29,426 bases of DNA from a virus. A program made the translations under genes and the position numbers. The stretch is from positions 1-29,426 of IMG/VR virus record IMGVR_UViG_3300030380_002109; one strand, given 5' to 3'. The notes under the pieces are model-generated. The model was not told where the DNA came from and did not search any database. It was given only the letters and a program-made list of their open reading frames with translations. Positions 128-26,651 of this stretch are shown here, piece by piece; the stretch's first letter is position 1; each line of letters opens with the position of its first letter.

Positions 128-1231
128 CTAATCTTTAGGTACTCTCCTGTTTGGGGGATTCCTATATCCATTAGGGTCTGGTCTAGGGCTTCTTGGTGCC
201 CCGTATTGCTTTTCTAATGACTTTTTATAGTTTCCTAAAAAAGGCATATTATTTAGTTTACCATCTTTTTTGTCTTTCGACCAATCAGTTTCCATTTTTT
301 CAACTTCTTGTGTAGATTGAGTCGTAAATTTTATACCGTATTTTTCAGGATTATCTGAAATATCTTGATTTAATGCATCAATATTTTCCATATCTTTTTT
401 ATATCTTCTTTGCATATCAGTCATGCCGTCTTCTTTTTTTAGTTCTTTACGAACATCATTAATTAGTGAGACCACATATTGACTTAATTGATCTGTTTTC
501 TTCAATCCAAAAGCTCTATCCTCTGCGTTTCGCTCTCTAGCTTCCATAAAAGATTCCATGTCTCTTTCTTCTAAAGATGTTTTTACATTATTGTCTGGTG
601 TTAATCCACCAGTTCTACCTAAATCAAACTTAGGTTTATCTTTGTCTTTAATTAAGTCTAGTGTTTTTTCTTGTGTTTCTTGTAGCCACTTATCTAATTT
701 ATCTGGACCACTAGCTTTCTTTTTCTTTTTTTCGTTTTCTTTTATTTTTTGTTTTTCAGATAGTTTCTTCTTTTTCTTTTTAGACTTTGTGCCACTGTAT
801 GTTTCAGTAAATATTCCGGGATCAGATGCTACGGCAACTATGTCTCCCGCACCTGAAGTAGCTCCTCCAAAGTCTTTATACAGTTTTTCTACCTTAGAGT
901 CTTCTTTTTTATCAACTTCCATCAAATGCCCCATTCTTGCTTTAAGGTGTGATAAAGCTTTTGATGAGTCTTTCGCATTTATTGCAGTTGTCGCTTCTTT
1001 TTCATGGTGTTGACTTGCTCTCCTATGATAAGAAGATCCTGTCTTTTTAGGATGATGGATAGCTTTAACACCATTTTCATAATAATATACTACAGAACCA
1101 TCAGGTCTAGTTTCCCTATGATCATAAGAATGATCTGAATATTCATCGGGCTCGTTAGGAGATTTAGGTGACGCTGATTTTGGTAAAGTTTTATACTTAG
1201 TGTCCTTTGGATTAAACTTCATTTTAGCCAT
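128..1231 (-). CDS. Hypothetical Lys-rich protein downstream of the portal
   Basis: This 367-residue protein has no fold I recognise. It is very hydrophilic and low in complexity. Two lysine runs (KSKKKKKK and KKKKKAS) lie near residues 150-175, followed by charged helical segments and a C-terminus rich in Pro, Arg and Asn (PRSPRPDPNGYRNPPNRR). The start overlaps the portal stop as TAATG, so translation is coupled to the portal. A gene directly after the portal often encodes a head morphogenesis, scaffold or protease-associated protein, and the charged helical composition would allow a scaffold-like role, but no residue pattern proves it. The lysine runs are homopolymeric A tracts in the coding strand and could be prone to sequencing slippage, although the frame stays open throughout. 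Confidence 0.75.
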   Translation of the reverse strand: MAKMKFNPKDTKYKTLPKSASPKSPNEPDEYSDHSYDHRETRPDGSVVYYYENGVKAIHHPKKTGSSYHRRASQHHEKEATTAINAKDSSKALSHLKARMGHLMEVDKKEDSKVEKLYKDFGGATSGAGDIVAVASDPGIFTETYSGTKSKKKKKKLSEKQKIKENEKKKKKASGPDKLDKWLQETQEKTLDLIKDKDKPKFDLGRTGGLTPDNNVKTSLEERDMESFMEARERNAEDRAFGLKKTDQLSQYVVSLINDVRKELKKEDGMTDMQRRYKKDMENIDALNQDISDNPEKYGIKFTTQSTQEVEKMETDWSKDKKDGKLNNMPFLGNYKKSLEKQYGAPRSPRPDPNGYRNPPNRRVPKD

Positions 1232-3240
1232 TAGTCATCGTCCTCATCATCATCATAGCGTTCTACATTTACAGCTTTTGGTTTAGATGTGCCATCTCCT
1301 GTTTCAGCAGTATAGGCATCACTAAAGTATTTTTTACCTCCAGCCTCAGAAAATACTGGGTTTCCAAAGTATGCTTTTTCTATTTTATCAACTCCAGTCC
1401 CTGATAAGTTTCCTGTATATTCTTCCCCGTTATTAGAGAACCATACTTTATTACCGTCAGGTGATATCTGTTTAATAATTGGGAATTGATATCCTTGATC
1501 AGATAGACTGTCAATCCAAGTAGATGTTGTCACACCTTTCTTGAGATCAGGATTTTTTATATTCTTTGATTGTATATTTTCAAATCCTCTGGGAGTATCT
1601 ACGACAGCGTTTTCAACAGGCACTTCTTGTGAGCCCTCTTCACTTTCTTCTTCAGGCACGGTGCCCTCAGCATCTACAGGGACATCACCCTCACCTTCAC
1701 CTTCTTCTGGAACATCTCCCTGTGCAGCCTGTTGCTCTGCTTGTTGAGCTTGCATCTCCATTTGTGCTTCTGCTTGTGCAGCTTGCATTTCAGCTTGTTC
1801 AAGTGCTAATGCTTGTTGTTCACCCTGTAACTTAGCAGTAGGAACTGCCTGACCGCTAACAATAAAGTCAAGTTGATCTATCTTAAGGTTGTTACCAGCA
1901 AGATTAACATCAAAACCCATTCCTAACATTTGAGCTGCAATCGCTGTTCTCTGTTGTGACTGAGCAATTCTAGTAGCTTCTGCTTTTTCTTCGGGATTAG
2001 GTAATACTATTTTCCAGTCTGTAACACCAAAGTTATCTAATATAGCAGGGAATACTTTTTCCATTATTTGTCGTTGATCTCTTTCAACAACTCTACCCAT
2101 TACAGTCAATTGTGATGTTTGTTGTGTCAAACCACCAAATGAATCAGGAGCACCCTGCCACATTGGAGCTACACCCCATATAGCAGATACTCTTTCTCGT
2201 ATCTCTGCTCTTACAGGTAAGTAATCCATCTCTTGTAATGTATGGAATAGTCTTACCATGTCAACTCTACCTCTATTTGTTCTAGAAGATACAGCAATCA
2301 TAGGTATGTAGTTAGGATCTTGCCTTGTTTTTGCAGCAAGTGCTTCACGTTCTCTCTTTAAACTTTCTGGATCATCTGTAGTTACCATAACCATAGATGC
2401 AGGCATTTTTCTTTCAAAGAAATACCTGTATAAGTTTCTGTCCATACCAATTAAGGTTAGAGCTTTTTCAAATATTGTTAAAATAGGTGACCAACCATAT
2501 GTCTCAGTTGGATTAAATTTAGATAGATGTACAACTTCAGTGTCTAAAAAGTAATGCACCTCTGTTCTATATAAATATCGGTACATTGCAGGTTGTAGTT
2601 TTTGTTTACAATCTTCTTCAGGACATTCTTCTGGAGATTCTTTTATCTGTTCTCTATGTAATGGGCAAAAGAAATGAGAGTTTTTAGGTAGCCCTGTTTC
2701 ATCTAAGTCATATTCTATAAGAGCAGGGTTTATTCTTCTAATTTCAGTAACTCTTGATCTTAATCCCCCATCGCCTGTGTCATAATATTCTTTTGAAAAG
2801 TATAAGAATGCATCATCAACTGTGTTTAGATCCCAATGAAACTGCCTCAATACCTCTTCTAATCCTTGATCAAATACATTACAGTCATCCATAAACTCTT
2901 TTAGTCTATCTAATTGACCTTCATCTGGGTCTTCAACTAAAGGTTCAAATTGAATACCTCTTCTAAACACCTCACCTGTTATGTGTAGTATAGGTGCACG
3001 TAGTTCTTCAGCAGTATACGCTACAGTTTGTAAATCTTGTATTAGTTGTTTTCTATATGCAAGTTGATTTCTTACATAAGTGTTTACTATGTAATCAACA
3101 CCGAATGTTGGTCCACTACCTGTATCTCCAGCAGCTTTGCTTAATTGCATCATGTCCCCAAACATATCTATCTGAGAACCAAGTTTTCCCATGGACTTTG
3201 CCATTTCAGGAACTTCTGGAAGATATTCTCCTAATTTCAT
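1231..3240 (-). CDS. Portal protein
   Basis: This 669-residue protein is read as the dodecameric portal at the DNA entry vertex, to which terminase docks. Support comes from its size, its place after the terminase genes, and portal-like segments: an N-terminal region with helix and sheet, an FNPTETYGWSPI stretch near 242-253, the MDRNLYRYFFERKMPAS helix near 266-282, and WQGAPDSFGGLTQQTSQL near 361-378, which resembles the portal stem and crown region. Two features are unusual. A possible zinc loop is formed by C192, H195, C206 and C211. A long C-terminal extension after about residue 470 holds a Gln/Ala/Glu-rich coiled-coil (about 473-507), an acidic linker and a small terminal domain ending in an acidic run. 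The start follows an AAGGAATAAGG leader six bases after the previous stop. Product confidence is high, although family membership is inferred from motif resemblance. Confidence 0.85.
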   Translation of the reverse strand: MKLGEYLPEVPEMAKSMGKLGSQIDMFGDMMQLSKAAGDTGSGPTFGVDYIVNTYVRNQLAYRKQLIQDLQTVAYTAEELRAPILHITGEVFRRGIQFEPLVEDPDEGQLDRLKEFMDDCNVFDQGLEEVLRQFHWDLNTVDDAFLYFSKEYYDTGDGGLRSRVTEIRRINPALIEYDLDETGLPKNSHFFCPLHREQIKESPEECPEEDCKQKLQPAMYRYLYRTEVHYFLDTEVVHLSKFNPTETYGWSPILTIFEKALTLIGMDRNLYRYFFERKMPASMVMVTTDDPESLKREREALAAKTRQDPNYIPMIAVSSRTNRGRVDMVRLFHTLQEMDYLPVRAEIRERVSAIWGVAPMWQGAPDSFGGLTQQTSQLTVMGRVVERDQRQIMEKVFPAILDNFGVTDWKIVLPNPEEKAEATRIAQSQQRTAIAAQMLGMGFDVNLAGNNLKIDQLDFIVSGQAVPTAKLQGEQQALALEQAEMQAAQAEAQMEMQAQQAEQQAAQGDVPEEGEGEGDVPVDAEGTVPEEESEEGSQEVPVENAVVDTPRGFENIQSKNIKNPDLKKGVTTSTWIDSLSDQGYQFPIIKQISPDGNKVWFSNNGEEYTGNLSGTGVDKIEKAYFGNPVFSEAGGKKYFSDAYTAETGDGTSKPKAVNVERYDDDEDDD

Positions 3241-3710: not shown

Positions 3711-5582
3711 TTATGCTATATGACAAGCACTCCACCCGCAAGTTTTACATGTTTTACAACCAGACTCCATTACTATGTTAGGTTCTACACAACAGTCTGC
3801 TTCTTCTATCTCTTGAAAGAAATTAAGTTGTTCTTCTGTTTCAGGGGCATTTGTCTCCTCTGATTTGTGTGCAGTTACTAATACTTCTTTATCTCTACTA
3901 CCAGCTCTGTAAACTGTAATACCTTTACATTTTGTCTTCCAAGCTAGCATATAAGTTGTGTACACATCTTCTATTGTAGCATCATTTGCAAAGTTTATCG
4001 TCTTAGATATTCCAGAGTCACAATGTTCTTGAAAAGCTGCTTGCATTCCTACATGTGATTCAGGAGATATCTCAGGTGCTGTTGTATAGATTTCTTTTAT
4101 TTCGTCTGGCACTTCTGTCCTATCTTTTAATGAGCCACCATCAGATAAGTATTCCATAAGTTCTTCTGAATAAAAGCCCATATCTTTAGCATCTTGTTCA
4201 AAGTATTTATTTACATAGTAAAGTGTTTCCCCTTCTAATATGTTCATCTTTCTGTAAGCTAAAGAAAATAGTGGTTCTACTCCACTAGATGCATCAGCAA
4301 ACATAGAGATAGTTCCTGTAGGGGCTACAGTTAGTCTACAAGCGTTTCTATATTTTTCATCTTCGCCGTAATCACTGTTATCCCATGCAGGGAAAGTTCC
4401 TCTTTCTCCTGCTAATTCTTTAGATGCTTGATCTGCGTGAGTTTTTAAAAACCTCATTACATCAGATCCTATCTTTCTACCTTCTTTAGAACCATATGAA
4501 ACTCTAAGTTGCGTAAGCATATCTGCAAATCCCATAATGCCTAAACCTATTTTTCTTGTAGCTTTAGTCATTTTTTCTATTTCTGGCGTTGCATATTTGT
4601 TTGCATCTATTACGTTGTCTAAAAATCTTGTAGCTGTTTTAATTGTGTTTCTTAAATCATCCCACTTAATGTATGGTCTTATTTCTGTTTTCTCTACAAA
4701 GTTAGCTAAATTAATTGACCCTAAGTTACAAGATTCATTTCCTAATAAAGGTTGTTCACCACATGGATTAGTAGCAACCATTTCACCGTATTCTTCTGTG
4801 ACGTGATTGTCTTTGTTTACTTCATCTAAAAAGATCATGCCGGGCTCACCATTTCTCCATGCACCATATACCATTTTATCAAATACTTCTTTAGCGTTTA
4901 ACTCACCGACTACTTGTTTACTCTTTGGATTAATCAATGGGTAATTAAGATTAGCTTCTACGGCTTTCATAAAGTTAGAGTCTACACCTACTGATATGTT
5001 GAAGTTATGTATATCACCCTCTACTTTTTTGCAGTCAATAAATTCTAATATATCTGGATGGTAGACTGACATTACTGCCATGTTTGCCCCATCTCTTTTA
5101 CCACCTTGAGTAATCATGGATGATACTCTAGATAGTGTCTGTAACACTTGTATTGGACCGCAAGCAATACCGTGAGTTGTCTTTATCTTATCGCCTCTTG
5201 GACGTAACTTACTTAGGGCAAAGCCCGTCCCACCACCAAACTTTTGTACCATAGCTATGTCATGAGCTGCCTTCATAATGTCTTCCATACTATCTTCTAA
5301 AGGTAGTACAAAACACGCAGACAATGTGCCTTGTTTTGTGCCAGCGTTCATGAGTGTCGGAGAGTTAGGTATAAAGTTTAACTCGGTCATCATATCATAA
5401 AATTCTTTTGTCGTTAATTCTACATCTGCATCTGACTTTCCATATAATTTTTCAGAAGATGCTATAGCTTTAGCTACTCTTTCTAATAATGTATTTGCGT
5501 TTTCTTCAGGTTCACCTGATTCGTCTTTTAAATAATATCTCTTTGACGCTACTGTTTCTGCTTGTTGTGTTAACGTGACCAA
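3711..5582 (-). CDS. nrdJ: Class II (adenosylcobalamin-dependent) ribonucleotide reductase
   Basis: This enzyme makes deoxyribonucleotides for phage DNA synthesis using B12 as the radical source. From the TTG start at 5582 it is 623 residues. Visible features are NSPTLMNAG near 73-81, the redox cysteine C90 in LSACFVLP, GGGTGFALSKLRPRGD near 116-131, the active-site loop NPCGEQ with C274 and E276, its partner C285 in NESCNLGS, PTGTIS near 421-426, and a C-terminal cysteine cluster C609, C612, C615 and C620 typical of class II enzymes. No small-subunit gene is needed or seen. I chose the TTG because AGGAGG lies six bases upstream. The open frame continues 52 codons upstream, but that part overlaps the terminase C-terminus and looks unlike any reductase. 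The gene sits between terminase and portal, an unusual place, and may have its own promoter near 5719. Confidence 0.95.
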   Translation of the reverse strand: MVTLTQQAETVASKRYYLKDESGEPEENANTLLERVAKAIASSEKLYGKSDADVELTTKEFYDMMTELNFIPNSPTLMNAGTKQGTLSACFVLPLEDSMEDIMKAAHDIAMVQKFGGGTGFALSKLRPRGDKIKTTHGIACGPIQVLQTLSRVSSMITQGGKRDGANMAVMSVYHPDILEFIDCKKVEGDIHNFNISVGVDSNFMKAVEANLNYPLINPKSKQVVGELNAKEVFDKMVYGAWRNGEPGMIFLDEVNKDNHVTEEYGEMVATNPCGEQPLLGNESCNLGSINLANFVEKTEIRPYIKWDDLRNTIKTATRFLDNVIDANKYATPEIEKMTKATRKIGLGIMGFADMLTQLRVSYGSKEGRKIGSDVMRFLKTHADQASKELAGERGTFPAWDNSDYGEDEKYRNACRLTVAPTGTISMFADASSGVEPLFSLAYRKMNILEGETLYYVNKYFEQDAKDMGFYSEELMEYLSDGGSLKDRTEVPDEIKEIYTTAPEISPESHVGMQAAFQEHCDSGISKTINFANDATIEDVYTTYMLAWKTKCKGITVYRAGSRDKEVLVTAHKSEETNAPETEEQLNFFQEIEEADCCVEPNIVMESGCKTCKTCGWSACHIA

Positions 5583-5601
5583 AATGAACCTCCTATGGTT
5601 A

Positions 5602-6939
5602 CTACGATTTTTTATAATTACAATAAAGACACAAACCCCTAGCAGGCACCCACAATGAGGGACCACAGAAGTCCTCTGTACAATTTGGGTTGGGTGCTTG
5701 TAAGTTTTTGCTACTATCATTATACACGTTTTTATCAAAATCGATTAACTTTTCTGGCTTATTTTTGTCCATATTTTGATATTTTAGTGATGGTTCCACA
5801 TCGTGTACGAACTCTTGCAAATCACCTACAGCTTGCATGCTATAAATGCCTGTTTCATACGCAGCTTGTAAAGCCATTGCAATAGAGAAAAAAGCGTCTC
5901 CGTGACCCATTGGAGTCTCTGGGGCTTTCAATTCATTATTAACTGAAAGTATCTGTTGTCTTTGTCTAGTGTCTCTAATTAAAAATAAATTACCTGAATG
6001 AACATACTGTTCAAAGATATGTGCCATATTGTTTTTAGACTTCAAACTAAATGATAGTGGATGCCATTTTCTATCTAAACCCCTATCCTCTAACTCACCT
6101 CTTGTGTTATCTATATAACCCTTTGTCAACCCAAAGTTTTCAGCCGCTTCATTTAAATATTCTATTTGTTCTGAATAGTCCCAACCATCTAACCATGATT
6201 GATGTATCTGTTCTACTTTTTCACCTTTACGTTTAAATATCACTAGATGTGACGGGTGTCTTTTTTTACCCACGTCAAACCCTGCAAATACATCTTCATC
6301 TTCTTCAAAATCATGTTTTACAGTTGTAGGAAAAGACCTTAAGTTATCATCTTCACACTTTTCTATATCTTCAGAATCAAAATATGCTTCAGTATTAAAG
6401 TGTGGTTGCAGTAAAAACTCTGACGCAAATGACTTAGGTTTAGCTTTTTGTTGTTCTAATAACCATTCTTCACTATATAACTCTGGCATTAATACTCTTC
6501 TACCCGGTTCAGGGTCAAGTGCTGGCATCTTTCTTGTTACAAATCGGTCATCCTTTTCTAATATAGTAAGTAAATCTCCGGGCATCATAGGTGTACCAAC
6601 AATTACTACTGGTACTCCCTTATTAGGTATGAAAAGCGATTCAGTCAAAAAGTGGTCTTCAATCTTATTCATTTGCCCTAATGCAAGAGGGCTTTCAGGG
6701 TCTTTCAAAATGTCGTCTGCAATTAATGCTCCATTAACGTGCATACCTCTTTTGAATGAAAACAATCCTCCATGTAAAATTTCAGCACTGCCACCATTAC
6801 CTGTGTCATATCTAAATGTAAAATCAGCTTTTGGGGCTCTGTTAGTCATCATATCTTTCAATAAAGGATTACGGTTTACTTCTTTGTTTATTTCAGATAT
6901 GTGATACTTAGTTAAGACCATCTTCAATACACTTTTCAA
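5602..6939 (-). CDS. terL: Terminase large subunit, C-terminal fragment (Walker B and nuclease domain)
   Basis: This open frame carries most of a packaging motor. After the junction it reads KYHISEINKEV, then a Walker-B-like segment HVNGALIADDILKDP, the segment PVVIVGTPMMPGDLL typical of the ATPase core, and an RNase H-like nuclease with DVGKKRHPSHLVIF (first acidic residue), YIDNTRGELEDRG (second) and GHGDAFFSIAMA (last). The C-terminus has four cysteines (C420, C425, C437, C440) that could bind zinc. The Walker A P-loop that should precede KYHIS is absent, and the upstream part of the protein lies in another frame (6908-7117). The nominal start at 6939 is TTG without a good ribosome binding site, so this probably is not an independent start but the 3' part of one damaged or mis-assembled gene. 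Confidence 0.85.
   Translation of the reverse strand: MKSVLKMVLTKYHISEINKEVNRNPLLKDMMTNRAPKADFTFRYDTGNGGSAEILHGGLFSFKRGMHVNGALIADDILKDPESPLALGQMNKIEDHFLTESLFIPNKGVPVVIVGTPMMPGDLLTILEKDDRFVTRKMPALDPEPGRRVLMPELYSEEWLLEQQKAKPKSFASEFLLQPHFNTEAYFDSEDIEKCEDDNLRSFPTTVKHDFEEDEDVFAGFDVGKKRHPSHLVIFKRKGEKVEQIHQSWLDGWDYSEQIEYLNEAAENFGLTKGYIDNTRGELEDRGLDRKWHPLSFSLKSKNNMAHIFEQYVHSGNLFLIRDTRQRQQILSVNNELKAPETPMGHGDAFFSIAMALQAAYETGIYSMQAVGDLQEFVHDVEPSLKYQNMDKNKPEKLIDFDKNVYNDSSKNLQAPNPNCTEDFCGPSLWVPARGLCLYCNYKKS
5719..5748 (-). promoter_or_regulatory. Possible promoter inside the terminase 3' end, ahead of nrdJ
   Basis: TATAAT occupies 5724-5719 on the minus strand in the context GTGTATAATGATAGTAG, which closely matches the boxes at 3681 and 8937. 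The -35 region is weak; TTAATC lies 18 bases upstream. It would give a leader of about 130 bases for the reductase. It lies within coding sequence, so chance cannot be excluded. Confidence 0.4.
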
Positions 6940-7117
6940 CTTCTTCAGTTAATTTACCCACATGCCATGCTTGAAAATATTCTGGGTGCTCAAATCCTTG
7001 AGACCAAATATCCCTAGTAAACTCCCAAAAACTACCTACCTTATATTTATTACTTTTTTCTAGTTTTTCTGCAAGTAGTTCAAAGGCTTTGTCATATGTT
7101 GTTAAATCATCACTCAT
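6908..7117 (-). CDS. terL: Terminase large subunit, N-terminal fragment
   Basis: This 69-residue frame reads like the first part of a large terminase: an N-terminal helix, then SFWEFTRDIW and the AWHVGKLTEEVEKCIEDGLN stretch that in this family leads directly into the adenine-binding and P-loop region. It stops at that point with a TAA. The remainder of the terminase is in the frame of 5602-6939, shifted by one base. The frames can only be rejoined if a number of bases equal to 2 modulo 3 is restored, and the missing P-loop segment would be roughly 35-45 residues. It starts at an ATG overlapping the small terminase stop by eight bases. Confidence 0.75.
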   Translation of the reverse strand: MSDDLTTYDKAFELLAEKLEKSNKYKVGSFWEFTRDIWSQGFEHPEYFQAWHVGKLTEEVEKCIEDGLN

Positions 7118-7613
7118 TATCTTTTGATGCCATCAATACTTTCAATTTAGCCGCTATTTTTTTAATTAAATCTGGGTCTTCTATTTCCTCTACCAATATA
7201 TTAACTACATCTTGAATAAACTGAACATTAATTAGCCCTTCTGCAACCTGTCTTTCTCCCTGTATACCTATATCTAATGCTTTAACTGCGTCAAAAGCTC
7301 TTTCAAAATTAAGTAATTGTAGTTCTGAACCAGCTTTATCTCTAATACCTTTATACATTTCCTGATGTTCTTCTTGCATCCTAGCTAACTTTGTAGATTC
7401 GTTATCTTGTACTTTCTCCATAGCCTTAGCTTTTGTTTCAGCTAATCTTTGTTTCCAATCGTCTGCACGCACCCAAGCATATATAGTTTGCTCACTCATA
7501 ACCACACCGTGTTCTGCAGAAACTTGCAAAGCTATTTCTTTTGCAGAGTATTCCTCTGTCAAATATAATTTAAATGCACGGTCTTTAACCGCTTTAGGTA
7601 ATTTTTTAGGCAT
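7110..7613 (-). CDS. terS: Terminase small subunit-like HTH protein
   Basis: This 167-residue protein has an N-terminal helix-turn-helix (AVKDRAFKLYLTEEYSAKEI, then TIYAWVRADDWKQRL at about residues 7-57). YAWVRADDWKQR is characteristic of small terminase DNA-binding domains of the homeodomain type. A long helical central region and C-terminal helices would form the oligomer. Small terminases recognise viral DNA and stimulate the large subunit. Position directly before the large terminase fragments supports the call. The start overlaps the previous stop as TAATG. An unrelated HTH regulator is possible but less likely. Confidence 0.75.
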   Translation of the reverse strand: MPKKLPKAVKDRAFKLYLTEEYSAKEIALQVSAEHGVVMSEQTIYAWVRADDWKQRLAETKAKAMEKVQDNESTKLARMQEEHQEMYKGIRDKAGSELQLLNFERAFDAVKALDIGIQGERQVAEGLINVQFIQDVVNILVEEIEDPDLIKKIAAKLKVLMASKDNE

Positions 7614-8104
7614 TACATATATGCAGCATTAGACCATCCTGTATCAGCGTTTCCTGATTCAATACTTCCTCCATGTGGGCTTCCATCTGATTGTAACAAT
7701 TTACTAAAATCCATGCCACCTTTATTTTTATTACCAGCAGCATTAAAACATTCTGGTACTTTGTGTTTTACGCCACCTGTGGTGGTTATCTCTTTAAATT
7801 TTATACCTATCTCAGCTCTGCTACATACACCCCTTATCATTGCATCTTTTGGACCAAGAGGTTTATACTGAGGATTTTCTAGTAAAGTTGCTATAGTTCG
7901 TTTAGCTCCTTCAGTTTGTACATTGTGTATACATTTGTAATAGTCACACCACACAACCTTAGCATACTTTGCTTTGAACTCTTCAGCAGTCATGCCTTTG
8001 GGTAACTTATCTTCTATCTTGTTATCTTTGGGTTTAGGTGTATCATAAAAATATGTTTTATTTTTTTGACCTGTAGTTTTTTTATACCCTCTAGGTGCTG
8101 CCAT
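7613..8104 (-). CDS. Hypothetical protein with paired cysteines
   Basis: This 163-residue protein has no recognised family. It has a basic N-terminus (MAAPRGYKKTTGQKNKTY), then a middle segment VVWCDYYKCIHN with two cysteines, two later cysteines in RGVCSRAE and VPECFNAA, and a Gly/Ser/Asn-rich tail. The four cysteines could bind a metal, possibly zinc. The ATG follows AAGGAGAATAGA, a good ribosome binding site, and overlaps the RuvC-like gene by 14 bases. Lying between a resolvase and the terminase genes, it may take part in DNA processing for packaging, but this is only a guess from position. Confidence 0.7.
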   Translation of the reverse strand: MAAPRGYKKTTGQKNKTYFYDTPKPKDNKIEDKLPKGMTAEEFKAKYAKVVWCDYYKCIHNVQTEGAKRTIATLLENPQYKPLGPKDAMIRGVCSRAEIGIKFKEITTTGGVKHKVPECFNAAGNKNKGGMDFSKLLQSDGSPHGGSIESGNADTGWSNAAYM

Positions 8105-8570
8105 TTCTATTCTCCTTCACTGAGTACAATGCGATGCACGCAGCATCAGCATAATCTTGTTCGGGGAACTCGTCTCCCCACTTTTCTATTGCATATTTTA
8201 GTATATCATCTTTTGTAGCTTTACCACTACCTAATATATGTTTCTTCCAAGTACCATTATCTACTAATGCTGTTGGGATATCACTTAAACATAATGTGCC
8301 CCAAACAGCTCCAACTACTTCAGATAAAGTACGCACTACATTTCTGTTTTGTGCAAATATGGGTTCTTCAATTACAGCATAATTTACAGTGTCAATGTTA
8401 ATCTCTTCTACTAAGATTCTAGCAAAGTTATCCATTAACTCTGGAAATCTGTCTTTGAATGATTTTTTAGTATTACAATCGGCTTTGTAAATTTTTATTA
8501 AGTTTTCATCTTCATCTAGCTCTACAATATGAATTGCTTTACTAGAGGTATCTAGCCCTATATATTTCAT
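8091..8570 (-). CDS. RuvC-like Holliday junction resolvase
   Basis: This 159-residue protein has the RNase H fold signature of RuvC-type nucleases: an N-terminal first strand MKYIGLDTSSKAI with catalytic D7, the central acidic pair E68/E69 in YAVIEEPIF, and a C-terminal helix QDYADAACIALYS with D139 and D142. These would coordinate two metal ions to cut four-way junctions. In phages such enzymes resolve recombination or replication branches so that DNA can be packaged, which fits its place between recombination genes and terminase. No strong ribosome binding site precedes the ATG, and translation may be coupled to the small gene four bases upstream. Confidence 0.85.
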   Translation of the reverse strand: MKYIGLDTSSKAIHIVELDEDENLIKIYKADCNTKKSFKDRFPELMDNFARILVEEINIDTVNYAVIEEPIFAQNRNVVRTLSEVVGAVWGTLCLSDIPTALVDNGTWKKHILGSGKATKDDILKYAIEKWGDEFPEQDYADAACIALYSVKENRNGST

Positions 8571-8574
8571 AGTT

Positions 8575-8748
8575 CTATTGTAAAGGTATATCTTCCTTTA
8601 TAATCTGTCTAGATGTTAACTTATCGTACACTTTATCTTCTAGTGCATCTCTTTTAAATACAGCTATAGTTGCTCCTACACCTACTGCAAGTGCTCCTAC
8701 TACTGGTAAACTCTTTACTATTCCCTTTGCTACGTCTTTACTTGTCAT
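8575..8748 (-). CDS. Small membrane protein (57 aa)
   Basis: The 57-residue frame starts MTSKDVAKGIVKSLPVVGAL and has one hydrophobic helix rich in Gly, Ala and Val near residues 14-31, followed by a charged tail ending KEDIPLQ. The ribosome binding site AAAGGAGAAG is well placed. It lies 15 bases after another tiny membrane protein and both follow a promoter-like box, so they look like a two-gene cassette. Small phage membrane proteins in such pairs can be holin-like or superinfection-related, but one transmembrane segment and no family match do not allow a functional call. Confidence 0.7.
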   Translation of the reverse strand: MTSKDVAKGIVKSLPVVGALAVGVGATIAVFKRDALEDKVYDKLTSRQIIKEDIPLQ

Positions 8749-8763
8749 TACTTCTCCTTTAGT

Positions 8764-8913
8764 TTATTCTCCTTCTAGGATTTTCATACCTAGGGCAATT
8801 ATACCACCAATAGTTGCTGTAGATACCTCTGGCATCTGATAAAACAAGCCTACTACTGATAAAATAGTAAGGCATAATATTGCTAAAAATATTTGTGGTC
8901 TGAATTTTCCCAT
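8764..8913 (-). CDS. Small membrane protein (49 aa), possible holin-like
   Basis: The frame begins MGKFRPQIFLAILCLTILSV and encodes 49 residues. It contains a strong transmembrane helix near residues 8-25 and a second, weaker hydrophobic stretch (TATIGGIIALGM) near 33-44, ending in charged residues. Two short membrane spans with charged ends fit the general layout of class II holins, and similar pieces are often found near phage lysis genes, but no endolysin is visible nearby. The ATG is preceded by AATAGGAGATTTATATTAAT and a TATAAT box, giving it a very short leader. The function is an inference from topology only. Confidence 0.7.
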   Translation of the reverse strand: MGKFRPQIFLAILCLTILSVVGLFYQMPEVSTATIGGIIALGMKILEGE

Positions 8914-8936
8914 ATTAATATAAATCTCCTATTATT

Positions 8937-8966
8937 ATTATACTAAGTTTTATAGATTTTTATCAG
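8937..8966 (-). promoter_or_regulatory. Promoter-like site ahead of the membrane-protein pair
   Basis: TATAAT at 8942-8937 lies in the context CTTAGTATAATAATAATAGG. A weak -35 match, CTGATA (8966-8961), is 18 bases upstream. The -10 core is shared with sites at 3681, 26652 and 28964. The box sits just after the stop codon of the gene at 8950-9444, and the first ATG is 23 bases past the box. Confidence 0.6.
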
Positions 8967-9444
8967 TTCTTAGTGAAACAATTCTAGAAAGGGTGTTATA
9001 ACACTGACTAAAAGTGTTTAATCTACCTTCTTCGTACCTAAAACTAGTTTCTAACTCTACTTTTTTCTTAAATAAATCTTTTAGATGGTCGTGAGAAGAC
9101 ATAATTAATCCTCTAGCTTCATCTCTAGTAGGCTTTTTACCATCAATTGCTGACATAAATTTTGCAAAAGCAGCATTATACTCTTCATCAAAGATAGCTG
9201 AGATAGCCCCTACTTTAGCTCGTAGTGTAGCCACAACGTGTTCTAGTATAGCTTTACCCCCACCATATATAGCTAATAGTTTTTGTAACTGTTGATTTGA
9301 TGCAGAACTAACATCTGCCCAATCTACGTCTTTTTCAGCATCTAAAAATTCTTGATTGAATTTAATCCATGGTACGCTAGGAACAGAATCTCTTTCTTTC
9401 TTAGCATAGTCCATTACATCATCATAACCCCATTTTCTTTTCAT
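8950..9444 (-). CDS. Hypothetical helical protein after the Cas4-like nuclease
   Basis: This 164-residue protein is predominantly helical, with no catalytic motif that I recognise. It starts MKRKWGYDDVMDYAKKERDS and includes a glycine-rich turn (AIYGGGKAILEHVVATLRAK near 58-77) and several amphipathic helices. The start overlaps the upstream nuclease stop as TAATG and has AGGAGG before it, so the two are coupled. Pairing with a Cas4/RecB-like nuclease suggests a partner in DNA end processing or recombination, but that is positional inference. Confidence 0.75.
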   Translation of the reverse strand: MKRKWGYDDVMDYAKKERDSVPSVPWIKFNQEFLDAEKDVDWADVSSASNQQLQKLLAIYGGGKAILEHVVATLRAKVGAISAIFDEEYNAAFAKFMSAIDGKKPTRDEARGLIMSSHDHLKDLFKKKVELETSFRYEEGRLNTFSQCYNTLSRIVSLRTDKNL

Positions 9445-10121
9445 TATGTCCTCCTGTTTTTACATTTGCAATACCACATACCTGTACATGTTTCAGGTTC
9501 TGTAGTCATTGTCATTATTTTTTCACATCGTTTTAATATATTATCCCACGTCTTTTTATCTCTGTCAACTTTAAATGCTTTTAGGTTTTGGTCATTTTTG
9601 TTTTCATACATAACCACACCGTAATCTCTGTCAGTTAAGTTAAGATATATCTGTAACTGTATCATGTGTTCATGTTTTGGGGCTTCTTTTAAATCTTTGA
9701 AGTCCTCATCCTTTATAGTTTTCAACTCTAGTAAGGCTTCTTCATGCTTGTCGTGCTTTATTATGAAGTCAATCCTACCTGATATAGGAGGGTTTTCACT
9801 TTTTATAGATACTTCATCATCAATATATAGTTCGGCTTTTTCTAAATACTTTTTCATACGTCCTTCAAATGTACCCCCGTGGTCAAATATTCTTTGTATG
9901 CGAGGTTTTATAGTATCCCAATCAAGTAAACCATTATATGCCATATATAAATATTTATCACAAGGATTACCAAATACAGACGGATAAAACTTACCTTTGG
10001 ATGGGGGACTGTTTTTTCTACCAAGTACATTATCTATAGATTTTAATAACCATCTATCTTGATTCTTAGTTCGTTTACCCTTTGAAGGGGTCATATTGCT
10101 TATAGCTTCAATTCCTGCCAT
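9444..10121 (-). CDS. Cas4/RecB-like PD-(D/E)XK nuclease with putative Fe-S cluster
   Basis: This 225-residue protein has the core of a PD-(D/E)XK exonuclease: GRIDFIIKHD with the metal-binding Asp, EALLELKTIKD with the E-x-K pair, and HMIQLQIYLNL with the Gln/Tyr motif that is typical of RecB-type nucleases. One N-terminal cysteine, C54 in FGNPCDKYLY, and three C-terminal cysteines, C212, C218 and C220 in CTGMWYCKCK, match the one-plus-three arrangement that holds a 4Fe-4S cluster in Cas4 and AddB. It would resect DNA ends, supplying single strands for the RecA-like protein encoded two genes upstream. There is no CRISPR array or cas gene in the window, so a recombination role is more plausible. 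It overlaps the Vsr/DUF559-like gene by 22 bases. Confidence 0.85.
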   Translation of the reverse strand: MAGIEAISNMTPSKGKRTKNQDRWLLKSIDNVLGRKNSPPSKGKFYPSVFGNPCDKYLYMAYNGLLDWDTIKPRIQRIFDHGGTFEGRMKKYLEKAELYIDDEVSIKSENPPISGRIDFIIKHDKHEEALLELKTIKDEDFKDLKEAPKHEHMIQLQIYLNLTDRDYGVVMYENKNDQNLKAFKVDRDKKTWDNILKRCEKIMTMTTEPETCTGMWYCKCKNRRT

Positions 10122-10384
10122 ATCTTTGCCTTTATATCTTTATATGTTTTTTCTTTTACATGTACAATTTCATATCCTGCTTCTTTTAGATACTCATCTC
10201 GTAATGCATCTCTTTTTGCAAAGTGTCCAAAAGGACCATCTGCTTCTATTATAACATCCATTTCCGTTATTATGAAGTCAGGTACGTACTTACCTACAGG
10301 CGTTTGCCATGTGTATCGTAACCCCACCTCATCAAGCACTCTCGCTATCAGATTCTCCTGTAAGGTATGACTTTTTCGTGGCAT
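10100..10384 (-). CDS. Vsr/DUF559-type endonuclease-like protein
   Basis: This 94-residue protein resembles the small single-domain PD-(D/E)XK fold of Vsr and DUF559 nucleases: an N-terminal helix, GKYVPDFIITEMDVIIEADG with the PD and E-x-D positions near residues 31-50, KRDALRDEYLKEAGYEIVHV typical of the DUF559 C-terminal half, and a final helix. It overlaps the RecA-like gene by 53 bases, more than usual here. The overlap is believable because GAGGAG lies seven bases before the ATG. Its likely job is nicking or cutting DNA within recombination or host DNA degradation. The substrate cannot be told. Confidence 0.8.
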   Translation of the reverse strand: MPRKSHTLQENLIARVLDEVGLRYTWQTPVGKYVPDFIITEMDVIIEADGPFGHFAKRDALRDEYLKEAGYEIVHVKEKTYKDIKAKIWQELKL

Positions 10385-11342
10385 CTACAAGCTCCTCATA
10401 TTCTTTCGGGTTTTCTTTGAACCATGTAACAACTGCGTTCATACCTCTAAAATTAACTGTTTTATAATAATACATAGCACCTTTTTGTTCAATGATGTTT
10501 TCTTCTAAGGCTACTCTTACATAAGTTTCAATCATGTCTATACCACCATCAAACTTAAACGGTACGATAGCTTGTTCAAACTTTTCTCCACCAAACTTAT
10601 CTTTTAGTAATCTAGCGTTTATTTCAAACCCCATTCTATCTGCCATGTTTTTTGACCCACTTTTACCGGGTTTAGTTAACCAAGAGCCTCTAGTAAAGTG
10701 CATACAACAGTGTGAAAAGTATTTTTGTCCCTCTCCACCCGGCATTGTATCCATCATTTGTACATTACCCATAGTACCTCTAGTCTGATTTATAGCAACA
10801 AAAGCCCCACCGTGTTTTAATTCAGGTATAAGTCTCATTAACATTTGATTCCAAGCCCTAGATTGCCATGCAATAGGACTATGCCCTACGCCATCTTCAT
10901 GTGTAAAAATATCGTTAGGTACTAAACCTGCTACACTATCTAAAACTACTATATCTGCACCAGCTTGTAATGAGTTTCTAGCAGCTTTGAATGCTTCTTC
11001 AGAAGTATCAGGGTCATAAACTAACATTTCTTTTGTATTTAGTCCACTCTTAGTCATCCAGTCATTATCCCATGATTTCTCTAAATCAATCCACACAGCT
11101 ACTCCACCCTCTTCCTGTACGGTCTTGCACAATTGTGAAGCAACGTAAGACTTACCCGATGAAAATCCACCAAATAAAAGAGTAAATCTTTTTCTAGGTA
11201 TACCTCCATGTGTAATCTTGTCTAGTTGTGGGATGTTAAAAGGTATTTTAGTGTACTCAAAAACTGTATCATCTCCAGTCGTAGCTTTTACTTTTTTATC
11301 ATTTAGTAAACTGCTAAATATTTCTTTTGCATTTTCTCTCAT
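10332..11342 (-). CDS. RecA/UvsX-like recombinase
   Basis: This 336-residue ATPase would form filaments on single-stranded DNA and carry out strand exchange. It has Walker A GGFSSGKS at 58-65, catalytic Glu E88 in IDLEKSW, Walker B ADIVVLDSVAG with D135, and INQTRGTMG, which corresponds to the segment before the L2 DNA-binding loop. The C-terminus is short and acidic (ESDSESA), as in many recombinases. The start ATG overlaps the MazG-like stop as ATGA, with AAGGTGAAG upstream. Neighbouring nucleases and a RuvC-like resolvase support a complete recombination module. Host RecA is usually about 350 residues with a typical GPESSGKT loop, so the GGFSSGKS form favours the phage/UvsX side. Confidence 0.93.
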   Translation of the reverse strand: MRENAKEIFSSLLNDKKVKATTGDDTVFEYTKIPFNIPQLDKITHGGIPRKRFTLLFGGFSSGKSYVASQLCKTVQEEGGVAVWIDLEKSWDNDWMTKSGLNTKEMLVYDPDTSEEAFKAARNSLQAGADIVVLDSVAGLVPNDIFTHEDGVGHSPIAWQSRAWNQMLMRLIPELKHGGAFVAINQTRGTMGNVQMMDTMPGGEGQKYFSHCCMHFTRGSWLTKPGKSGSKNMADRMGFEINARLLKDKFGGEKFEQAIVPFKFDGGIDMIETYVRVALEENIIEQKGAMYYYKTVNFRGMNAVVTWFKENPKEYEELVDATKKSYLTGESDSESA

Positions 11343-11620
11343 ATTAAATCTTCACCTTTTTCAACTCGTCTTTTTATATTTCTTTTTTGTATTGCCTCTG
11401 CCCAAGCCATGCATACAGCACCGCATTGGATAAGTTCGTTATATAATTTAGTTGTATTTTTTTCATATACTTCTCTAGCTACTTCTCCAAACTCTTCACC
11501 TAGAATTACAGTCCAATATTCATCTGTATGATTTATTTGTTCGCCCCATTGCTTTTCTTGTGCTTCTCGTTCAGATAAAAATTGCTCTGTAATTATAGCT
11601 CTAACATGCTCAACTTCCAT
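11339..11620 (-). CDS. MazG-like NTP pyrophosphohydrolase domain protein
   Basis: This 93-residue all-helical protein has the layout of short phage MazG-like proteins: EKQWGEQ near 22-28, then ILGEEFGEVAREVYE with E42, E43 and E46 of the first metal-binding helix, and YNELIQCGAVCMAWAEAI for the second. In MazG the second motif is E-x-x-D; here the Asp position is Gln, so activity is uncertain. MazG-type enzymes hydrolyse nucleoside triphosphates or alarmone-like nucleotides and are frequent in marine phages. It overlaps the preceding gene by 11 bases. Confidence 0.75.
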   Translation of the reverse strand: MEVEHVRAIITEQFLSEREAQEKQWGEQINHTDEYWTVILGEEFGEVAREVYEKNTTKLYNELIQCGAVCMAWAEAIQKRNIKRRVEKGEDLI

Positions 11621-11843
11621 CCTTCTTTTTTCCCTTCTTTAGGATTCCCCTAATCTCACCATCAACTTTATCGTATACTGCTTTGTATGCTTTATCTAAT
11701 GTTAATCCCGCTTCTTCTAGTTGTTCTTCTATTGGTAATTCAGTATCAATGTCATGAATCTCCATGTCCATTCTTGCATACTGATTGGTTTCTAATGGAC
11801 CTACTCTAAATGTAAATCCTAATTTAAGTCCTACTTTAGCCAT
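11610..11843 (-). CDS. Small hypothetical protein
   Basis: This 77-residue protein begins MAKVGLKLGFTFRVGPLETN, has an acidic middle (ELPIEEQLEEAGLTLDKAYK) and a lysine-rich end (KKGKKKDGS). AAAGGAGATTAA precedes the ATG, and the start overlaps the upstream gene by eight bases, so it is a real gene in the operon. No family is recognised. The placement between a possible nuclease and a MazG-like gene gives no functional clue beyond nucleotide or DNA metabolism. Confidence 0.7.
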   Translation of the reverse strand: MAKVGLKLGFTFRVGPLETNQYARMDMEIHDIDTELPIEEQLEEAGLTLDKAYKAVYDKVDGEIRGILKKGKKKDGS

Positions 11844-13188: not shown

Positions 13189-15383
13189 TAGTCCCAATCT
13201 ATATGTTCTTCTAAATTAAACTTGTTTATATCATCAAAATCTTTTTTTACTGCCCATGAAGGGTCACATACTTCCATATCCACCTCTAGTGGAATGTTAA
13301 GTGTATTCTCCTTCATTAATCTTCTTATCTCAGGGGCTACATCATCTACCTCATCTTTATGTACCTCACAGATAATCTCATCATGCACTTGTAGTAACAG
13401 ATTACTCTTCTTATCCTTTAGGTATTCTGCCACAGCAACCATACGCTCACTCATTATATCTGCACTAGTTCCTTGAATCAGGTAGTTAACACCCTTATAT
13501 CCAAACTCACTAGGTACTCTATATACTCTACCATACTTATTCCTAACTTTACCATCTGCTTTTATCTTCTTTATAACCGCATTGAAAAACTTTCTAGAGC
13601 CTTTCATATTTTCTAAGTATGTGTTTTTATATTGAGCAGCTTCATCAGGAGTAGTATTAAGTTGTAAAGCTAGTTTATCTTTACCTATGCCGTATATTAC
13701 TCCAAAAGTAATTGACTTAGCTAACTGTCTAAAAAACTTGAACTGAGAATCATCTTCTGCAATGTTAAAAGCTATCTTAGCAGCTTCCCCATGAAAGTCT
13801 ACATCATCTTGTTTCATCAATTCATTCATCTCTTTGTTATCTACATAACTCATAAACACCCTAACTTCCATCTGAGAGTAATCATAAGCTATCATTTTGT
13901 AGTCATTTCTAGGTATAAACAAGTTTCTTATAGCAATTTGTCTATCGTCATTAGCGTTAAACTTATCCCCACCTAAAAAGCTCCATGTTTCTAATACATC
14001 ATCGGTTAGTTCTGTATTTGCATTACCACCTTTGCTAGATACAATGGCTGCTACCCTATCTCTAACATCCGCTTTGTCTGATTCTGATAGTTGTCTATCC
14101 TCTATGTAAACTGTATCTCTAGGTATATTCTGTAGATTAGGGCTACTAGATGAAAGTCTTCCTGTAACTGTACCCCAATTATTAAAACTAGTATGAAGCA
14201 CAGGCAGTTCTAAGTAAGGTTCTATATATGTAGACCTTATTTTCTCTAAAGCTCTATATTGTCTTATCAATCCCGCTAGTGGTGAGTTTAATCTTACAAG
14301 GGCTTCTTCATTCCACGCTTCTGCACCTTTTGCAGTGCGTAATGGAGAATGTATTCCCATAGCATTAAATGTTTCCCCTAACTGTTTAGTGCTACTAATA
14401 TTAAACTCATACCCCACTAATTTATATATCCTGTTTTTAAGTATATCTATGCGTTTTAAAGTCTTATCATATGCTTCTTTAGCGTAATTATTGTTTATTA
14501 ACACGCCCCGTTTTTCCATCATGTATAATGTTTTAGTTAAATCATTCTGAAATCTAAATAAATCTAGTTGATTTGATAATTCTAAATTACGCAACCTATC
14601 TTGATAAACTTTTCTAGTCCAATACACATCTTGTACACAATAAGGTCCTAAATAATGTGGGGGTGTGGCAGCAAAGTTTTTATTCCAAGAATGTTTTCTT
14701 AATATCTTTTTAGTTTCTACGTCATATAATCCAGCATTTTCTCCATAACTTCTAATAATTGTGTCTGTAAGACTTAACCTGTTCATAGTTGTGGGTTCAG
14801 TCATTCGTACCATAACTAGTACATCTACAAGATTCATATTAGGTATATCAATACCCTCATTCTCTAAAAACTTAGCATCAAATTTTACATTGTAACCAAT
14901 CAGACTTTTACAATTATCATTAATAAACCCTACTAATTCATTAAGTTGGGCTTGTGATAAATTGTTATACTGAACAACGTCAGTATCTTCTACCCATGTA
15001 GTAGTTGGTACCTCTTCTTGATTAATAACTTCCCCAGCTTCGTTTTTAGTCTTAACTATTTTAGTAGATGGGATTTGTTTATAAAAAGGTTCATCATACA
15101 TAGCTTGATGTCTGAAAGGAAAATAATAAATTTGAGAGTCTTTGTCAGTTACAGGCACTAATCCTATACCACATATCTGATTCATATCGTAGGGATTTAA
15201 TCCGTTAGTCTCTACATCAATAATCCACTCTGATACGTTAGGTAATGAATTTAATGTTTGTTTAAATGTGTCTGAAGTTACTATCATATCTGAATAAGCA
15301 AGACCCCCCGGCAGGACATACGCCGGAGAGTCTTTAATTATGGAGGTTGCTACCTTAGAATAAAGAGTCGTCATTATCATCAA
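13188..15383 (-). CDS. polA: DNA polymerase I-family replicative polymerase
   Basis: This 731-residue family A polymerase lacks the 5'-3' exonuclease domain. The proofreading domain shows Exo I WIIDVETNG (D56, E58), Exo II GYNVKFDAKFL (N165, D169) and Exo III YCVQD (Y248, D252). The polymerase domain has TGRLSSSSPNLQNIP, motif A IAYDYSQMEVR (D501), motif B RQLAKSITFGVIYG (R552, K556, F560, Y564) and motif C LLLQVHDEI (H667, D668, E669). F560 occupies the position of E. coli Phe762. About 55 extra residues separate NLQNIP from IRNLFIP, much more than in most relatives. The start overlaps the SSB-like gene by 29 bases; ATGs at 15383, 15380 and 15374 are all possible. It would copy the phage genome with the nearby helicase, primase and SSB. 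Confidence 0.95.
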   Translation of the reverse strand: MMIMTTLYSKVATSIIKDSPAYVLPGGLAYSDMIVTSDTFKQTLNSLPNVSEWIIDVETNGLNPYDMNQICGIGLVPVTDKDSQIYYFPFRHQAMYDEPFYKQIPSTKIVKTKNEAGEVINQEEVPTTTWVEDTDVVQYNNLSQAQLNELVGFINDNCKSLIGYNVKFDAKFLENEGIDIPNMNLVDVLVMVRMTEPTTMNRLSLTDTIIRSYGENAGLYDVETKKILRKHSWNKNFAATPPHYLGPYCVQDVYWTRKVYQDRLRNLELSNQLDLFRFQNDLTKTLYMMEKRGVLINNNYAKEAYDKTLKRIDILKNRIYKLVGYEFNISSTKQLGETFNAMGIHSPLRTAKGAEAWNEEALVRLNSPLAGLIRQYRALEKIRSTYIEPYLELPVLHTSFNNWGTVTGRLSSSSPNLQNIPRDTVYIEDRQLSESDKADVRDRVAAIVSSKGGNANTELTDDVLETWSFLGGDKFNANDDRQIAIRNLFIPRNDYKMIAYDYSQMEVRVFMSYVDNKEMNELMKQDDVDFHGEAAKIAFNIAEDDSQFKFFRQLAKSITFGVIYGIGKDKLALQLNTTPDEAAQYKNTYLENMKGSRKFFNAVIKKIKADGKVRNKYGRVYRVPSEFGYKGVNYLIQGTSADIMSERMVAVAEYLKDKKSNLLLQVHDEIICEVHKDEVDDVAPEIRRLMKENTLNIPLEVDMEVCDPSWAVKKDFDDINKFNLEEHIDWD
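15306..15328 (-). other. GC-rich hairpin in the polA coding start
   Basis: In the minus-strand RNA, CTCCGGC and GCCGGGG can pair into a seven-base stem with one G-U wobble and a nine-base loop. It lies about codons 19-26 of the polymerase gene. Its GC richness is striking in this AT-rich sequence, but a translational role is unproven. Confidence 0.4.
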
Positions 15384-18941: not shown

Positions 18942-19314
18942 TTGATTTTTGTTTCCTATATGTTTGATAGCAATCTCTTGTGCAATAAACATTCTTTAAT
19001 TTTAATCTATAGCCCTGCATTACTCTTTTTCTGCTCCTATAAAAAGGAACTCTACAAAAGGAACAGGTTAATCTTATTCTATTCCACCTAAATCTACATT
19101 CACCATCATGTAGTCCGTAGCGGTCCGTAGTTATCTCTCTACATACTTTACAGTATACCACAGGTTTAGGTTTGGGTGGGTTGGTTTCTAGATTGTTCTG
19201 GAGTAAAACTCTTCTTGCATACGATATATCTGCCCCTGCTCGTCTTGCAATTTCAGATGTAGACATAAAAGGGTTTTGTTTCCTAAGTCTAACAACTTTA
19301 TTCTTTACCTTCAT
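18895..19314 (-). CDS. HTH and double zinc-site protein, possible regulator
   Basis: This 139-residue basic protein begins with a helix-turn-helix-like region (MSTSEIARRAGADISYARRV at about 17-36), then carries two cysteine clusters: C55, C58, H69 and C73, and C84, C87, C111 and C115. These could bind two zinc ions and make a nucleic-acid-binding surface. It overlaps the tail protein gene by 17 bases and the sigma-like gene by 47. Position next to the sigma-like factor makes a role in regulating late or middle transcription plausible, but neither family is identified. The first ATG lacks a strong ribosome binding site and may use translational coupling. An ATG at 19266 is an alternative. Confidence 0.78.
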   Translation of the reverse strand: MKVKNKVVRLRKQNPFMSTSEIARRAGADISYARRVLLQNNLETNPPKPKPVVYCKVCREITTDRYGLHDGECRFRWNRIRLTCSFCRVPFYRSRKRVMQGYRLKLKNVYCTRDCYQTYRKQKSNENRQRPNTTMGAED

Positions 19315-22300
19315 TTTCTAACTTATCTACTTTATCAGATAACTCTTGTATTGCTTTCATCATAGGAGCTATAAATTCTGTATACGCTAAACCCATCTTA
19401 GCTTTTTTAGTATCCCCCTCTACTCCGCTGACTAAAGAGAAACCTTTTGGGTCTAAATTCATATCTTTTAATACCTGTTCTACATCTTGAGCGATTAAAC
19501 CGTGTTCAATTTTACTAGCTTCTAATCGAGTATATTTAGATGGTTTTAATTTTTTTATAAAGTCTAATCCAAATTCTGAAGGTTCAATATTTTCTTTTAA
19601 GGTTCTATCAGATGATGTATCATCAGCATTAGCCGAATACACTTTTTTCCATGCAAAACTACCATTTCCTAATTCAAATCCAGTTGTGCCATTAGAATTT
19701 ACAGTAGGCAACCAATCATTGGCTATGTCACCTGATAATGCCGACCCTCCTATGCTACCTTCGGCGTACACAATGGTGCTGTTCGTATTAGCTGTTTCTG
19801 CAGTTGTAGGGGCTCCTTGACTTATAAACAATTCTATTTTAGCTTTTGCACCTACAATACTAGCTGCACATCTAGCTATTTTTAAATTTTGAGCAGATAT
19901 AGGATATAAATCATTGTTACCTGTTAAGGCACTTCTTCCTGCAGCAGAATTTCGTTGTTCATAGTCATCTTCTTTTAAAGTTAAAAATTCACTAGTGGAT
20001 ACATGTGGGTCAAAGAAAATAATGTAATGGTCATCAGGATTACCGTCAGTATCAGAATCACTAAATACCATATCTCCGTTAACACCATATGTTGCCCCAT
20101 CTGTGCAACCAGCGTTTATGGAATAAGTTTCTGTACCTACATACAAAGTTCCAGCGTTCCATGATACGTTATCATCTTTTTCTGTCACAGTGCCCGATGA
20201 GTCGGAGCTACTACTTTTACCCGGATAAATTTGCCCTCTGTAATGTGGTTTATAAGTTTCAAAAGTATAGCCACCACCATAATCGTCATCTACCATATCA
20301 TCTAGGTTACTAACATTAGGTCTTCTAGCCGCTACTACTTTTTGTAAATCTAAAGTACCATCAGATTTTATACTCCCATCTCTAAAACCTATAGTTTCTA
20401 TATCAGTATATGCTTTTCCCCCAGTTTCATAATATATCATTGAAGTTACTAATGAAGGTCTAGCCGCTATGCCGTGTAGTTGAGAATCAACAATAACCAT
20501 ATGCCCACTTCTTACTGGAGCAGCAAATCTTAAATAATCATTAGCAGAAATACTGCCTGTATTTAACATAAATCGTAAATTTTCTTGTCCAGCCGTATTG
20601 TCTTTTCTGACATAATTTAAATATCCATGAGCTGATACATTACCCCCATCACCATCTAGTTTCATAATTGAATGTCCAGCTTTTACTATACGATTATATC
20701 CTCCAATTGTCCCTCCATTATCGTTATCAGTCAAAGTCTGTGCACTTGCATCAGTGAACTGTACGTTTGTTCCGCTTCCAACAGTAGTTTCTGTAATGGT
20801 ATCCCCACTAGCAGCAACCCTACTTTGAAAAGTAAGAGCAGGATAACTATTAGTTATTTGAAATCTACCCCTTATCTTAGGATTGTTTGATTGTAAAAAT
20901 CTAGCTGCGACAGCTTCTCTGATGTTTGCGTAACTATAATCTGACCCAAATTCCATAGTAATAGCAACTCGTTTACCATTTACTGCGGAAGGTCTAAAAC
21001 TGTTTGCTTTGCTTGGGTCATCTACTGCACTTAAGACTTTAGTATTACCACTACTAGCTGTATCTAAATATATAGTCTGCCCTGCTGACACGGTTGCTCT
21101 ATTACCATCAACAGTCGTGTTGGTAGTCCCTGATAATACTAATAAACCTGCTGAACTATGAGCAAATCCTGCATATTGTACATATCCTATTATGTCATCA
21201 CTCGCGTCTACAACCCTGCTTGGAAAAGAAGCCTGACTTTTTGCACTTGCAGAATCATAAAATATTCTTGGGTCATGAGCTCCTCTTAAACCTGCAGGGT
21301 CTCCTCTAGATGCCTCTATCCTTTTGTTAGCTCCTGTTGGATTATAGGATGTTGAAAATTGTTCGTCACTAAATGCTCCCCCTGTTCCCACATAAAATGC
21401 TTCCATTTCTATTTGACGCATTTTTCCACTCTGACTGTCTCTATATCTTACGTTAATTACGTTTACGTTTTCAGCTCCTTCTTCATCAAAAGATGCTCCC
21501 GGTATTATTCTTCGTTGGGCACCGTGTTCAGATACTGTTGAGGTGCTGCTTACATTCTGAAATCTCATTCTTCCAATGCTAGATGTGCCAGAGGATTCAG
21601 AATCAGCTGGTGATGGCATAAAACTCGTACCAAAATAGTTTAATAAAGGAACGGTCTTTAATCCTGTAGATACATTATAGTGATTAGCATCCATATAAAA
21701 ATTGTATCCAAATGCAAAAGATGATGGATTTTTATCTGTAAGAGCTAATCTTTGTATACTGTGTAAAACAGAATCATTAGTTGATTCAAAACTTATTCTA
21801 CCACTAGATGCAGACCCTGTTTTTTCTGATTTAGAAGTTCTAAATCTAACCTCTGCATTGCTTGAATTAGAAATAGGTTCTGTAGTTGTAATATCTCTTT
21901 CATTTCCGTCAGTCCCATCTCCAATATCTGCTTGATAATTTTGCACTAATTTCTTAATTACAGAAGATGTCCTTTGGTCTGATATGTCTGCAGATGCTGC
22001 GTTGTAACTTTGTGAAGATGTGGTTTCAGTATTGTAATAAACAACCGCACCACTCCCTGTTATCTGGCTTCTACCTAATTGATATAAAGCATCGTAAGCA
22101 GTTACATTCATAACTGTACCATTAGAGTCATGTTGTTTTGATATGCTTCCTACATCACCCCTAAATAAAACACTAAAATTAGCCCCATCAATAACTTTAA
22201 TTGGAGTGTTTTCTTTTATTATTCCATCTACTATACCTGCATCAGTAAATAACTGATTACGACTAGTGTTTCTTAATACTAATTGACATATTCCCGGTTG

Positions 22301-26631: not shown

Positions 26632-26651
26632 TATATTTCCTCCTACGTTTT

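Follow-up and report, generated by a model that had tools for sequence, protein, structure and literature searches.

The stretch of DNA analysed here (the window) is the 29,426-base virus record IMGVR_UViG_3300030380_002109, which derives from a tailed phage whose genes lie on the minus strand. The phage is presumably marine, judging by the IMG sample numbers of its relatives, and the window is probably a fragment of a longer genome, as some relatives' records span 38-43 kb. The large-terminase gene is broken at window positions 6909-6911. An intact small-terminase gene lies upstream of it, confirming the packaging-gene context, and an intact portal gene lies downstream. The features of the locus are as follows:

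1231-3240, minus strand: portal protein, intact (PHROG 18178, portal, E = 7.6e-41), downstream of the terminase
3711-5738, minus strand: large subunit of RNR
5173-6911, minus strand: downstream flank of the junction, identical to relative L001 for 1,739 bp
5602-7117, minus strand: split large terminase
5602-6918, minus strand: C-terminal part of the large terminase from KYHISEINKEV, with Walker B, the nuclease domain and the C-terminal tail and without the P-loop
6939-5602, minus strand: C-terminal open reading frame (ORF), 445 aa, with a mechanically assigned TTG start (ORF list)
6908-7117, minus strand: N-terminal large-terminase fragment, 69 aa, ending ...KCIEDGLN at a TAA stop (ORF list)
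6909-6911, minus strand: deletion junction, a CTA common to both sides, where 128 bp of the relatives are absent (blastn of the flanks)
6912-11837, minus strand: upstream flank of the junction, of the type of relative L002/L090, with two mismatches in 4,929 bp, the nearest at 7784
7110-7613, minus strand: small terminase, intact (PHROG 2414, E = 3.9e-7; Pfam Terminase_5, E = 3.7e-5), upstream of the large terminase

Further genes of the window encode a RuvC-like resolvase, a UvsX-like recombinase, a family A DNA polymerase, a primase and a DnaB-like helicase; the UvsX-like and DnaB-like products, which are the other P-loop proteins of the record, are ordinary replication proteins. In the exonuclease region of the polymerase, near residues 76-140 (window 14963-15158), it carries some 42-45 in-frame residues that are absent from relatives L084, L087 and L088, a natural length variant in which the frame stays intact. 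A 1,135-aa protein (window 19298-22705) matches tail fibre and tail spike families at its C terminus, and its end (TLKENI...HGLIAQDVE) may resemble an S74-type chaperone domain.

A first-pass annotation, made from the letters alone, had described a large terminase in two frames, the first ending in EDGLN and the second resuming at KYHISEINKEV, from which the P-loop and its flanks (35-45 residues) were missing; the ORFs, in frames -2 and -3, bear this out. The N-terminal fragment shares 97-100% identity with residues 1-74 (numbered from stop to stop) of the relatives' 552-codon frame, and the C-terminal part is 93.6-99.3% identical by tblastn to the same gene in relatives, with a PHROGs match to the terminase large subunit. 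In the nearest relative, L002/L090 (IMG/VR 3300006928_001720), the gene order is that of the window over 6,292 bp and the terminase is whole: a single 552-codon frame reads EDGLN, then 43 residues including PRAHFKST, then KYHIS. The window lacks exactly 128 bp of this sequence. When its flanks were aligned by blastn with 80 related loci, query positions 1-492 corresponded to L002 positions 4391-4882 and query positions 490-800 to L002 positions 5008-5318. The loss is thus 2 modulo 3 and falls within the 105-140 bases that had been predicted, and the proposed CTA overlap is present at 6909-6911; the annotated description held in all the details tested. The TAA stop is formed by the junction itself, and the contig sequence runs cleanly across it, with no N.

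The gap removes codons 70-112 of the 547-aa protein, comprising the first strand, most of the P-loop PRAHFKST, a helix and the next strand; 26 of these residues are invariant among 20 aligned relatives. An AlphaFold model of the intact relative is of low confidence (mean pLDDT 54.9) and served solely to confirm to which fold family the protein belongs and that the lost stretch has a strand-loop-helix-strand character; it places strands at residues 70-73 and 100-104 and a helix at 78-95, an arrangement that would form the core expected of an ATPase nucleotide site. The annotation had also called for a search for the missing segment in the rest of the genome; within the record, blastn-short and tblastn found no copy.

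We compared the site with the 80 IMG/VR loci that encode a related terminase. All close relatives covering both flanks run through extra DNA at the position of the junction (blastn), and PR[AF]HFKST occurs within one open frame in 70 of the 80 loci, that is, in all 70 relatives that span the site. The frame is complete in 56 of these 70 (549-567 codons from stop to stop); in the other 14 it is truncated by contig ends alone. Eight loci without the motif (L028, L033, L053, L057, L066, L072, L074 and L075) start at, near or downstream of the site, truncated there by the end of a contig or by a gap in a scaffold. The remaining two, L079 and L080, are distant relatives (38-40% identity) that carry ARLH[SG]KSE at the place of the P-loop; in them a deviant, P-loop-like motif, ESARLH[SG]KSE, replaces PRAHFKST. 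With the segment present in every spanning relative, the observation is not due to chance. The annotation had named relatives that also lack the segment, together with uniform spanning coverage, as evidence that would refute an assembly error; no spanning relative lacks it.

The junction sequence, searched with both alleles of a nearby polymorphic base, was absent from the other IMG/VR contigs searched, a set that may not include records closely similar to the window. When the relatives' ORFs were tested on the window, no other coding-strand gene was split between frames, so the genome is not in decay; one antisense ORF pair near 26,646 emerged from the same test and is not a coding-strand gene. 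On these comparisons, the terminase lesion is single and private and, as the near-identical neighbour L002/L090 is intact, recent. Two other records of the family, 3300030095_001288 (L053/L078) and 3300030104_002135 (L069/L075), each consist of two pieces that lie 10 bases apart inside the terminase gene and look as if separated by a short N run, so that this gene seems prone to assembly breaks.

The two flanks of the junction resemble different relatives. L002/L090 differs from the window by five mismatches in 6,292 bp, with no indel besides the 128 bp: apart from the two upstream mismatches, three fall within 1,363 bp downstream (at 6901, 6508 and 6280), the nearest 8-10 bases from the junction. 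In L001 (IMG/VR 3300025101_000178) the terminase frame runs unbroken to the end of the contig. Comparing L001 with the window gives 7 mismatches over 204 bases upstream of the junction, the nearest at 6986, and none over 1,739 bases downstream (Fisher p = 1.3e-7); the corresponding contrast for L002 is weak (Fisher p = 0.07). The bounding mismatches at 6986 and 6901 therefore place a haplotype switch within an interval that contains the junction. The lost 128 bp lie wholly within a 212-bp stretch that is identical in L001 and L002, in which short reads are unable to separate the two haplotypes; this position is not special, since several stretches of at least 200 bp in the terminase gene are the same in both relatives. 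Beyond window position 5173, inside the RNR gene, identity to L001 drops from 100% to about 88%, and over the whole 6.3-kb downstream alignment L001 is about 11% different. This drop suggests that haplotypes in the population are mosaic, or else that the L001 contig is chimeric.

The annotation had left three explanations open: an assembly error, a defective variant, or a P-loop supplied elsewhere. The first two both fit the data and the third does not. We consider the 128-bp gap to be probably a sequencing or assembly artefact of a presumably marine tailed-phage contig, in view of the intact relatives, the switch of haplotype where the flanks meet and the shortness of the overlap. Two nearly identical haplotypes would have been joined across the 3-base overlap, either in a chimeric molecule of the library or when contig ends were joined, and the P-loop segment dropped in the process. 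We infer that the join was made in vitro or in silico rather than in the phage, which would itself most likely encode an ordinary, intact large terminase; the haplotype change together with the 3-bp overlap fits a chimeric join better than an evolved gene. Microdiversity of marine viral populations is known to confound short-read assembly (PMC6487183), and contigs of two other records of the family also break within the terminase gene. Against an artefact, an overlap of 3 bases falls below every k-mer size, so that plain graph collapse cannot produce the junction and a junction-bearing molecule or a contig-end join must be assumed; moreover, natural recombination could account for the haplotype change as well, and a recombinant or deletion of natural origin would have the same appearance.

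It is possible, though on balance unlikely, that the phage population truly contains a deletion variant in which 128 bp were lost between two CTA triplets by slippage or end joining. Such a variant would make a fragment of 69 aa and a P-loop-less motor, would leave its own DNA unpackaged, and could be maintained only where intact relatives infect the same cell, unless it is a dead mutant of recent origin. The clean, N-free sequence across the junction speaks for it, and the CTA overlap is of the usual size for a microhomology deletion; however, 7% of random 128-bp deletions in this sequence would show three or more matching bases by chance, so the overlap carries little weight in either direction. 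A lethal allele would be expected to be scarce next to intact alleles, but here it is the one that was assembled; its junction occurs in no second record, its flanks belong to different haplotypes, no hairpin favours deletion (folding z-score 0.35), and no direct repeat beyond CTA links the deletion ends. That such a variant is kept in nature as a satellite-like cheater within its own species, packaged by the motor of an intact co-infecting relative, we regard as very improbable. Equally improbable is that the record comes from a provirus in decay or a remnant domesticated by its host, with the terminase as the first gene to be lost. Inactivated terminases do occur in prophage remnants, but the window holds neither a tRNA nor evident host genes, the terminase is the only coding-strand gene that is split, and a search of the genome_contigs collection (bacterial and archaeal species) gave no related terminase. 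Finally, we give almost no credence to a virus that works without a P-loop at this site, obtaining the segment from elsewhere (a split gene, a trans copy or a helper motor) or by frameshifting. Walker B and the nuclease motifs are intact and the record, as a fragment, leaves unseen genes, but the record nowhere contains the missing segment, a frameshift linking the two frames would still omit residues 70-112 with their 26 invariant positions, a nearly identical genome keeps the ordinary gene, and no relative has the gap. In addition, mutating catalytic residues of the ATPase centre of T4 gp17 abolishes packaging (PMC3012670). Nothing points to a new packaging mechanism, and a P-loop acting in trans found no support.

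A public viral contig can carry a clean-looking, N-free deletion of an essential motif in a marker gene, which calls for caution: terminase phylogenies or motif surveys built on such records would wrongly report that the P-loop had been lost. Should the deletion be real, the genome would be packaging-dead on its own, since the record holds no other copy of the segment and frameshifting would not restore it, and would represent a dead or helper-dependent phage variant.

The window copy was compared with the defining features of a large terminase (TerL). Its fragment shows sequence similarity to known TerL proteins (PHROGs 38, 5909, 9 and 675). As the annotation had noted, Walker B and the nuclease motifs are intact: Walker B with its catalytic acid is present as GALIADDILKD, where A173, L174, A176, D177 and D178 are invariant columns, and the acidic motifs of the RNase H-like nuclease (GFDVGKKRHPSH, YIDNTRGELED and HGDAFFS) stand at conserved columns, with D324, D379 and D450 in invariant columns. 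A relative's model matches the G20c nuclease (5m1f, TMt 0.64). The Walker A P-loop is absent from the window copy, and the window protein, lacking residues 70-112, would be expected to fail in forming a nucleotide site or packaging DNA with ATP. No solved structure for this terminase family was found by sequence; in Foldseek, the low-confidence model of the L002 protein (mean pLDDT 54.9) matches the large terminases of T4, HK97 and D6E, with hits to 3cpe, 6z6d and 5oeb at E <= 2e-9. The intact L002 gene matches phrog_38 (E = 2.4e-26, residues 26-299, P-loop included) as well as phrog_5909, in keeping with the TerL of tailed phages in the PHROG 38 group, whereas the window copy differs from that group in its missing residues 70-112 and its division between two frames.
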